Assembly (NCBI RefSeq): GCF_026004075.1
Contig: NZ_BPIK01000001.1
Location: forward strand, 1,714,041-1,778,040
Direction of reading: 5' to 3'
Length of the DNA: 64,000 nucleotides
From: Meiothermus sp.
GTDB lineage: Bacteria > Deinococcota > Deinococci > Deinococcales > Thermaceae
A program made the translations under genes and the position numbers. Position 1 is the first letter of the stretch. Each line of letters starts with the position of its first letter. Shown here one piece after another: positions 14,104 through 47,673 of this stretch. A model generated the notes under the pieces. The model was not told where the DNA came from. It did no database searches and saw only the letters and a list, made by a program, of their open reading frames with translations.

Positions 14104-14928
14104 TCAGCCCGACTGCATTAAGGAAATATTCAGGGCCTCAAAGTCGCGCAGGGCCTCGAGGGCATTCGGGTAGCGCTGACGTATATCCTTGGAAATAAGG
14201 CGATCCAGGAAGCTCTGTAGTTCTGCGGTAACAATCAGGCCGGTATCCGGTGCGGCCACCAGGGGTGGTGGGGCAAGGTTAAGGTGGGCATTCATCACCT
14301 CGACTGGCTCACCCACAAAAGGCAATTCACCGGCAACGGCCCAGTACAGCAGAATACCAGCCGAGTACATGTCCGATGCCGCAGTGGGTGATTGCCCACG
14401 AATTTGTTCTGGGGCAATGTAGGCTATGGTGCCCAAGCGAACCCTCTGGCTAAAACGCTCGCTCTCTGGGCCAGACAGGTCAAAATCTACCAGGCGGGCC
14501 TCTCCAGTCCCGTCTACCACAAGGTTATCCGGCTTGACATCGCGGTGAACCAAATTCTGAGCGTGCATGTGCGCAAGGGCCTCAAGTAGATGCCTGAAAA
14601 CCACCAGCACCTTTGCAGGGTTGCCCTTTCGCCACTCCGACATACGGCTACCGGGAGCAAAAGCTAGCAGCACTGCCGGATTTTCGCCGCCATCGTGCGG
14701 CACAGCCAGGCGTGCTAGAACAGGGTTGATGCGCGGGTGCTTGAGCCGCTGACCCACCTTCCATTCGCGGTCAGCCCGCCCCTCGAAACCCTTGGGAAAA
14801 ACCTTCAGCGCATAGGGGGTGCCGTGTATATCGAAGGCCAGGTACACCGTCGCCAACGCCCCACGGGCAATCGGTCGGACGACCTTGTAGCGGCCTTCCA
14901 AGGTAATTCCGGCTAACCCCACAACCAT
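14104..14928 (-). CDS. Hanks-type serine/threonine protein kinase, soluble
   Basis: About 274 residues, kinase domain only, with no transmembrane or PASTA segment. The glycine loop is IARGALATVYLAF, the ATP lysine is in YALKVF, and the catalytic loop is NLVHRDVKPDNLVVDG. The metal-binding DFG is DFD in this protein (VDFDLSG). The APE motif is YIAPEQIRG and the SDMYSAGILLYWAVAGELPF block follows. A TATAGT box (14930-14935) sits 7 bases before an in-frame GTG at 14922, so a slightly shorter leaderless protein (272 residues) is possible. Targets unknown. Confidence 0.88.
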   Translation of the reverse strand: MVVGLAGITLEGRYKVVRPIARGALATVYLAFDIHGTPYALKVFPKGFEGRADREWKVGQRLKHPRINPVLARLAVPHDGGENPAVLLAFAPGSRMSEWRKGNPAKVLVVFRHLLEALAHMHAQNLVHRDVKPDNLVVDGTGEARLVDFDLSGPESERFSQRVRLGTIAYIAPEQIRGQSPTAASDMYSAGILLYWAVAGELPFVGEPVEVMNAHLNLAPPPLVAAPDTGLIVTAELQSFLDRLISKDIRQRYPNALEALRDFEALNISLMQSG

Positions 14929-14929
14929 C

Positions 14930-14935
14930 ACTATA
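14930..14935 (-). promoter_or_regulatory. -10-like TATAGT before kinase gene
   Basis: TATAGT on the minus strand lies 1 base before the ATG at 14928 and 7 bases before an in-frame GTG at 14922; the spacing favours the GTG as a leaderless start. Confidence 0.45.
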
Positions 14936-15010
14936 CCGATTTTGTCTGGCGCTTGGGGTTAATTGACCGCCGTAGACGAAATAGAATAAGCAAATAACAA
15001 GCTCGGTATA

Positions 15011-15147
15011 ATACCCTTTCCGCTTGAATCCTTCAGCGCCCTGCGCAGTCAGAGGTGAAGGATTCAAGCCGACCGAAGGGAGTAGAAAAGCATTTCGGTA
15101 GTATCGTTTAGGCTTGTCAAAGTGAACGATACTACCGAAATGCGTAT
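15011..15147. repeat. 137-bp two-hairpin repeat, full copy A
   Basis: Runs from ATACCC to GCGTAT. Hairpin 1: GCTTGAATCCTTC (15022-15034) pairs with GAAGGATTCAAGC (15057-15069). Hairpin 2: 19 perfect pairs between 15090-15108 and 15125-15143 (arm starts GCATTTCGGTAGTATCG). A same-length copy lies at 47151-47287 with about 12 differences, and a truncated copy at 27787-27872. The ends are loosely inverted (ATACC.. and ..GTAT). No protein is encoded. It sits in the gap between the divergent kinase and patatin genes. Confidence 0.9.
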
Positions 15148-15258
15148 AAGAAGTACGCCATCTTTTGAAGCTGGCCAGGCTTTACAAGATCGTGCTTAAA
15201 GAAGGCCCGGCAAAAACGAATCTGCTCAGCTTAGAATTCCTGCTAAGGAGGTTACTAC

Positions 15259-16002
15259 ATGCGTGGTCTAGTGCTATCTGGGGGTGGTGCCAGGGGGCTC
15301 GCCCATATTGGGGTGCTTGAGGTGCTCGAGGCCCAGGGGTTTGAAGCCGAGGTAGTTGCTGGCACCAGCATGGGGGCGGTCGTAGGAGCACTCTACGCCT
15401 CAGGCAAAAAACCCCCGGAGATCCTCGAAATTGCCCGTTCAACACCCTGGTTGCGCCTGCTGGATCTGGTTCCTCGTCCAGGGCTCATATCCCAGCGGGG
15501 CCTGAGGGAATTTCTGGCCAGACACCTGCCCACAAGGTTCGAGCAGCTTTCAAAAAGGCTGGTGGTGACGGCGGTAGACCTCGAGGCTGGCCGGCTGGCC
15601 TACTTCTCGGAAGGCGACCTGACCGGGGCTGTGCTAGCCTCTGCCGCCTACCCTGGCCTGATAGCCCCGGTACCCTTTGAGGGCCGAACCTATGTGGATG
15701 GCGGCGTGCTTGACAATTTGCCTGTAGACGCCGCCCGCTTTATGCGAGCCAGATACGTACTGGCCGTAGACGTAACCCCGGAGATACGCTTACCTGGGGT
15801 TCCACGCTCGTCTATCGGGCAGGTGCGAAGGGCCATCGACATTATGCAAAACCACCTAACCGCAGCGCGCCGCTCGCTATATCCACCCGAGCTTTATATT
15901 CGTCCCGAACTGCCTGGAGTTGGCATCGAGCAATTTGGGCGACTCGAGGAAATTGTCGAGGCTGGCCGCAAAGCAGCTGCTCAAACCCAGCTCAGGTTTT
16001 AG
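15259..16002 (+). CDS. Patatin-like phospholipase (RssA/YlbK type)
   Basis: 247 residues. The oxyanion loop is LSGGGARGLAHIGVLEVL, the nucleophile elbow AGTSMGAVVGALYASG (Ser in GxSxG), and the catalytic Asp lies in YVDGGVLDNLPVDAARF, giving the Ser-Asp dyad of patatins. No signal peptide, so cytoplasmic or peripheral. AAGGAGG sits 8 bases before the ATG. The physiological lipid substrate of these small bacterial patatins is not established. Stands alone, with a 137-bp repeat upstream. Confidence 0.9.
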   Translation: MRGLVLSGGGARGLAHIGVLEVLEAQGFEAEVVAGTSMGAVVGALYASGKKPPEILEIARSTPWLRLLDLVPRPGLISQRGLREFLARHLPTRFEQLSKRLVVTAVDLEAGRLAYFSEGDLTGAVLASAAYPGLIAPVPFEGRTYVDGGVLDNLPVDAARFMRARYVLAVDVTPEIRLPGVPRSSIGQVRRAIDIMQNHLTAARRSLYPPELYIRPELPGVGIEQFGRLEEIVEAGRKAAAQTQLRF

Positions 16003-27741: not shown

Positions 27742-27786
27742 CTGCGGAAAACAGTAAGTGCGAATCCGGATTGGTACAAGGGTTTG

Positions 27787-27872
27787 ATACCGTTTCCGCT
27801 TGAATCCTTCACCGTTGACTATCTCCAACGGTGAAGGATTCAAGCCGACCGAAGGGAGTAAAAAAGCATTTC
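27787..27872. repeat. 137-bp two-hairpin repeat, truncated copy B
   Basis: Matches the first about 86 bases of the repeat at 15011, from ATACCG to GCATTTC, then diverges, so hairpin 2 is lost. Hairpin 1 is longer here: GCTTGAATCCTTCACCGTTG pairs perfectly with CAACGGTGAAGGATTCAAGC (20 bp). It lies between the end of the AT-rich polysaccharide block and the stop of rfbD. Confidence 0.85.
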
Positions 27873-47147: not shown

Positions 47148-47153
47148 ATAATA
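47148..47153 (-). promoter_or_regulatory. -10-like TATTAT of the P450 gene at the repeat edge
   Basis: TATTAT on the minus strand straddles the end of the repeat, 11 bases before the P450 ATG; TTGAGG inside the repeat lies 16 bases further upstream and could serve as -35. Confidence 0.45.
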
Positions 47154-47287
47154 CCGTTTCCGCTTGAACCCTCAACCGCCATGCGCAGTCAGAGATGAAG
47201 GGTTCAAGCCGACCAAAGGGAGTAGAAAAGCATTTCGGTAGTATCGCTTAGGCTTGTCAAAGTAAACGATACTGCCGAAATGCGTAT
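47151..47287. repeat. 137-bp two-hairpin repeat, full copy C
   Basis: Same length and ends as the copy at 15011, with about 12 differences. In hairpin 1 GAATCC/GGATTC becomes GAACCC/GGGTTC, so a change on one arm is matched on the other. Hairpin 2 keeps 19 pairs except one T-G and one change near the loop. It lies between the P450 start and the trxA terminator. Confidence 0.9.
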
Positions 47288-47290
47288 AAA

Positions 47291-47340: not shown

Positions 47341-47673
47341 TCAGGCGCTAACCGGGACGTGCTTATTAAGGCGGGCCACAAAGTTGCTCTTGGGGGCTGC
47401 GCCTACCATTACCTCCACCGGCTGGCCGTTTTTGAACAGGATGATGGTGGGGATGCTCATCACCCGGAACTTCATGGCAGTCTGGGGGTTGGCGTCCACA
47501 TCCAGCTTGGCCACCGTCACCTTGCCTTCGTACTCCCTGGCCAGCTCTTCCATCACCGGCGCTACCATGCGGCAGGGGCCGCACCACTCGGCCCAAAAAT
47601 CTACGAGCACATAGGGATGTTCTTTCAAGATGGTATCAAAGTTGGCATCGTTGACTTCGATCGGTTTAGCCAT
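47341..47673 (-). CDS. trxA: Thioredoxin
   Basis: 110 residues. The active site is [21 protein letters not shown], with the cis-Pro loop [15 protein letters not shown] and C-terminal VGAAPKSNF. It reduces protein disulfides in the cytoplasm. GAGGT lies about 9 bases before the ATG. Single gene, ended by a hairpin. Confidence 0.96.

Follow-up and report, generated by a model that had tools for sequence, protein, structure and literature searches.

A mobile, strongly structured two-hairpin element of Meiothermus with TNA target duplications and a MITE-like plan

PATEs are non-autonomous derivatives of IS200/IS605 with two subterminal hairpins and no coding capacity, REPINs consist of a single palindrome in two inverted copies and duplicate no target, and HUH elements insert without duplicating their target. 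The repeat described here resembles PATEs in its two subterminal hairpins and its lack of coding sequence, and REP/REPIN sequences with RAYT in its many dispersed intergenic hairpins, but it duplicates its TNA target, which IS200/IS605 elements do not, and its hairpins 1 and 2 differ in sequence. The Correia/NEMIS, ERIC, RUP and QMITE2 MITEs are likewise short, non-coding, high-copy, intergenic and structured when transcribed, and QMITE2 lies mainly in 3' untranslated regions (PMC10969869). The fold of those MITEs is closed by long terminal inverted repeats, whereas the present element has two separate hairpins, a fixed core and a TNA duplication, and no parent IS was found for it. The IS1031 group of the IS5 family prefers TNA targets and makes exclusively 3-bp repeats (PMC12016507), as this element does. 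In contrast to the IS1031-type ends in these genomes (GAGACTGTC.../GAGGCTGTC...), however, it begins with TACC and carries no transposase inside. A literature search, with most subscription journals outside its scope, found no published description of the family.

The window, a stretch of 64,000 nucleotides of a Meiothermus genome, holds two complete copies and one truncated copy. The original prediction described a 137-bp repeat at 15011-15147 and 47151-47287, and both copies lie there, differing at 12 of 137 positions. Its ends need a small correction, as the outer base on each side belongs to the target duplication: forty copies with their flanks gave the pattern TNA, TACC...GTA, TNA, which fixes the unit at 135 bp between two 3-bp TNA duplications and turns the loosely inverted ATACC/GTAT into TACC/(G)GTA. 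Copy 1 thus occupies 15012..15146 on the plus strand between TAA duplications at 15009..15011 and 15147..15149. The left and right arms of its hairpin 1 (GCTTGAATCCTTCAGC, 15022..15037, and GGTGAAGGATTCAAGC, 15054..15069, both plus strand) form 15 of 16 Watson-Crick pairs, and those of hairpin 2 (15090..15108 and 15125..15143, plus strand) form 19 of 19, as had been claimed. Between the hairpins lies a conserved core, CGACCGAAGGGAGT (15070..15083, plus strand), which recurs in families with hairpins of unrelated sequence. Copy 2 (L039) occupies 47152..47286 on the plus strand between TAA duplications at 47149..47151 and 47287..47289, where relatives have a single TAA and no element. A third copy, absent from the original prediction, lies at 27788..27872 on the plus strand between convergent genes, next to a left target triplet TGA (27785-27787); it comprises the left end, hairpin 1 with its loop inverted and the core, and ends within the left arm of hairpin 2.

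Both complete copies are intergenic and non-coding, in line with the earlier reading of the sequence. Copy 1 sits between divergent genes for a Ser/Thr protein kinase (14104..14931, minus strand, PF00069), whose start side faces the element, and a patatin-like phospholipase (15259..16002, plus strand, PF01734). Copy 2 sits between tandem genes for thioredoxin (47341..47673, minus strand, PF00085) and cytochrome P450 (45910..47136, minus strand, PF00067). Judged by the protein N-terminus, the P450 gene starts some 13 bp away from copy 2; a longer ORF, reaching 47175, would overlap the element.

Searching the host genome (3.25 Mb) with a covariance model trained on 36 copies gave about 70 full-length elements and 20-25 that are truncated or decayed, on both strands; many further matches in the genome list proved to be the elements' own complementary arms. 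The whole-genome search proposed with the original prediction thus yields about 90 dispersed copies, and the target-site duplications that it suggested looking for are present as TNA. Identical TNA triplets flank both ends of 67 of 77 distinct full-length copies of the F1 family (34 of 37 in the first F1 set) and 44 of 54 copies of the F2 family; where F1 copies have TNA on both sides, the middle base is the same in 67 of 70, against 17.9 expected. Joining the flanks of eight insertion sites and comparing them with 18 Meiothermus genomes revealed empty orthologous sites with a single TNA at five loci (L039, L031, L173, L012 and L018; 82-95% identity). The site of window copy 2 is empty in G005 and G017, and in one of the 11 empty-site alignments (G017 at L031) TCC replaces TCA; the site of window copy 1 did not align across the junction. 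L021 and L022 carry an identical 1-bp deletion at different sites, which implies that copies seed copies. Dispersed copies, TNA duplications and empty sites together establish a mobile, non-autonomous element, as the original prediction had proposed, with the attributes of a MITE: it is short, non-coding, multicopy and found on both strands, with a target duplication and precise insertion. Six copies (L200, L205, L206, L207, L210 and L211) have lost hairpin 2 with differing end points and an intact TNA duplication, as if the palindromes had been deleted in place. At the left flank of L044 and the right flank of L028 the element is adjoined by another dispersed repeat, ATGGCTCCATTTTAGTGGAAAGAGTCTTGAAGATTTCTTATGAC, which has many copies in the host and G013 genomes.

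The F1 model matches other Meiothermus genomes weakly, and those matches represent other families built on a common plan: TACC, hairpin 1, the core CGACCGA(A/C)GGGAGT, hairpin 2 and GGTA, between TNA duplications. Their hairpin sequences are unrelated to those of F1, so that the core persists while the hairpins turn over. The 14-base core is matched in 17 of 50 Thermaceae genomes, 1 to 65 times each, against 0-2 matches per strand for the reversed core, and the Thermus-like genus g4 gave one match among 27 genomes. Judged by these sequence matches, the superfamily appears to extend across Meiothermus and its sister genera and to be essentially absent from Thermus. The F2 end TNATACCRGATTC occurs at 274 sites in G014 and 203 in G020, with none for the control; with two ends per element, this corresponds to roughly 100-140 F2 elements in each genome. 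Longer F2 size classes in G020 carry extra modules adjoining or inside the core, so the core is not absolute there, and these classes represent modular growth of the element. Extra GC-rich hairpin modules in or beside the core, such as CCGCCCCGCC..GGCGGGGCGG and GTTATCCGCGTGGCGGAGGGCGGTAGCGCC, were observed at L239-L250 of this genome. F2 is present on two Meiothermus/Allomeiothermus plasmids, F1 was found on no plasmid, and neither family was found in viral contigs. Among 84,980 species, the F1 linker turned up outside Meiothermus on a single contig, from a MAG labelled Thermaerobacter. This contig, labelled Thermaerobacter marianensis, holds a divergent F1 copy with a TCA duplication (L091:1444-1578) and is possibly misbinned Meiothermus DNA.

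Folding of the element is strong. The predicted RNA folds of copies 1 and 2 reach -68.2 kcal/mol (z -10.4) and -53.9 kcal/mol (z -6.8), respectively, and no shuffle folded equally well. The compensated change from GAATCC/GGATTC to GAACCC/GGGTTC between the two copies is real, and both hairpins are kept, but copy 2 also bears uncompensated arm changes, namely three mismatches among the 16 pairs of hairpin 1 and, in hairpin 2, a mismatch and a G-T pair. Such unmatched arm mutations, named in the original prediction as evidence against a kept fold, thus occur in individual copies. Among 64 copies, 96.8% of cells are paired, double changes occur at six pairs, and double compensation is seen in 40 cells where shuffles give 11.7; most of these cells trace to two or three subfamily-defining changes, with independent singletons in L047 and L048. 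Hairpin 1 of F2 shows 12 double-compensated states over 15 pairs. Variation is lowest in the core and the arms and highest in the loops. The pairing across copies, and the unrelated hairpins that other families hold on the same plan, bear out the view that the fold is kept. The further step, from compensation to a fold functional "as RNA or cruciform", is left insecure by the loop inversions and the even orientation of copies relative to tandem genes.

In six copies the loop is inverted while the arms stay in place, at hairpin 1 in L047, L188, L209 and window copy 3, and at hairpin 2 in L134 and L195. Homogenised arms with an inverted spacer are a published hallmark of template switching at inverted repeats (PMC8604942), and template switching is able to produce multibase compensatory changes (PMC8794818). 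The loop inversions therefore indicate that the arms also template each other during DNA replication, and since such switching yields compensation at the DNA level, compensation alone is no proof of a functional RNA. One-sided pair states present in at least three of the host's own F1 copies comprise eight G-U and one A-C (p 0.04, with the three-copy threshold picked after seeing the data), whereas all such states together are balanced at 22 G-U and 21 A-C. The former count hints, suggestively at most, that the plus strand folds in spreading lineages.

The copies crowd at gene ends. A simple caller based on codon usage placed genes on either side of 74 copies: 34 lay between convergent, 32 between tandem and 8 between divergent genes; 13 of 60 of the window's own gene pairs are convergent (Fisher p 0.004 against 34 of 74). 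Between tandem genes the two orientations are even, 14 and 18. For 25 of 76 copies the TNA doubles as a flanking gene's stop codon; leaving out L039, for which the call is an antisense ORF, the count is 24 of 75, against 32 of 364 for TNA positions lying outside genes (p 8e-7). Whatever its middle base, a TNA triplet reads as TAA or TGA, both stop codons, on one or the other strand. Insertion into a stop codon therefore restores the stop and spares the gene, which helps to explain the crowding. This pattern is the one predicted by insertion followed by loss of harmful copies and needs no function of the element; no consistent signal of a terminator or promoter role was found.

The mobilising enzyme was sought among the transposases of the same genomes. 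In the host, G005, G014 and G020, no examined IS5-type transposase locus is bounded by TACC-type ends, and the PF01609 and PF13340 loci examined in those four genomes include no autonomous parent. The IS1031-type ISs that are present have other inverted repeats (GAGACTGTCTTAATA and GAGGCTGTCGTAAAA, versus TACC). F2 carries the terminal inverted repeat TACCRGATTC at both ends, whereas F1 has only TAC/GTA and scattered matches, weak beyond TAC. Across 23 Thermaceae genomes, F2 ends with C or T as the next base gave three chance matches only, and left-end matches in the host genome outside known copies were chance hits or deletion derivatives. The partner may be extinct or belong to a different family, or it may read more of the end than its first bases; this third option draws a hint from the F2 ends, which outside the usual hairpins gave only those three chance matches. 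Three loci that resembled an element with its own transposase turned out to be insertions. L052 (C2:122945-124342), in which an ORF stops just before the right end, is a copy whose hairpin 1 took up a Mutator/IS256-family IS (PF00872; L052:1930-3345) flanked by an 8-bp duplication, GAGGTGAA. L216 (G014) is an IS1031-type IS with a TGA duplication in a copy beside a second partial copy, and L222 (G014) is an IS inserted in a copy.

Taken together, the element is probably a miniature non-autonomous DNA transposon of MITE-like type, moved in trans by a DDE transposase; we place the probability of this reading at about 0.7. It draws on the TNA duplications, the empty sites, the copy number, the plan of the other families, the stop-codon targets and the loop inversions, and is opposed by the failure to find an autonomous partner, the different ends of IS1031-type elements and the weak terminal inverted repeats of F1. 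It is best classed as a new superfamily of MITE-like, strongly structured elements whose mobilising enzyme is an orphan. While mobility is directly documented, the transposase type can be deduced only indirectly: from the TNA duplications, the enzyme would most likely belong to the IS5 superfamily (IS1031 group). It would recognise the ends, that is TACC with the adjoining hairpin and core, and paste the element into TNA sites, duplicating the TNA; arm complementarity would be upheld by constraint on the ends together with template switching between the arms at replication. That a DDE-type enzyme identifies the ends by the structure of hairpin and core, perhaps on a single strand, yet makes TNA duplications, is quite improbable; if true, it would explain hairpin turnover around a constant core. 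It is possible, if doubtful, that the fold is a by-product, with the inverted repeats of an ordinary MITE homogenised by template switching and no selection on structure. The six loop inversions and the published cases of homogenisation with spacer inversion (PMC8604942, PMC8794818) agree with this, but families with unrelated hairpins keep two hairpins in the same places around the same core, for which homogenisation alone is insufficient.

We regard it as unlikely that the hairpins constitute a functional structured RNA or mRNA element, acting in mRNA stability, processing or termination under selection at each site. The strong folding, the excess of double-compensated changes over shuffles, the 12 such states in F2 hairpin 1, the G-U excess suggesting plus-strand folding and the enrichment at 3' gene ends would all suit such a role. 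On the other side, copies are oriented evenly to tandem genes, the one-sided states balance once the post hoc threshold is dropped, several copies have lost hairpin 2 with the TNA duplication kept, no match to Rfam 15 exceeded the gathering score, no terminator signal is consistent, and the compensation can arise by template switching. Single-strand transposition of the IS200/IS605 or REP/RAYT type, with a Y1 HUH transposase reading the folded top strand, would account for a hairpin near each end, the conserved core between them and the strand-specific wobble hint. It has very little chance of being correct, as the middle base of the TNA varies by site but agrees across nearly every copy, and the empty sites hold one TNA, so that it is contradicted by the duplications.

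With copy numbers per genome that range from tens to an estimated 100-140, the element accounts for a large share of the intergenic repeats in Meiothermus and its sister genera, and its insertions are ready polymorphic markers with known empty sites. Its copies also form a natural experiment on the origin of compensated changes in long hairpins, pitting selection on the fold against template switching, and the enzyme, if found, would tell whether transposases are able to read hairpin structure at an end.

The element is itself a target of other insertion sequences. A 930-bp IS1031-type IS, with GAGACTGTCTTAATA ends, a TNA duplication and split ORFs of 131 and 180 aa, adjoins the left (TACC) end of the element, always that end, in at least five of eight IS copies (L115-L121 with L023, L032, L035, L042 and L049), and the left end of the element is thus an insertion hotspot for this IS. 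The host genome further contains about 22 closely related copies (L092-L114) of an IS5-type IS of about 870 bp encoding 269 aa, which are mostly near-identical and so recently expanded, with ends unrelated to those of the hairpin element.
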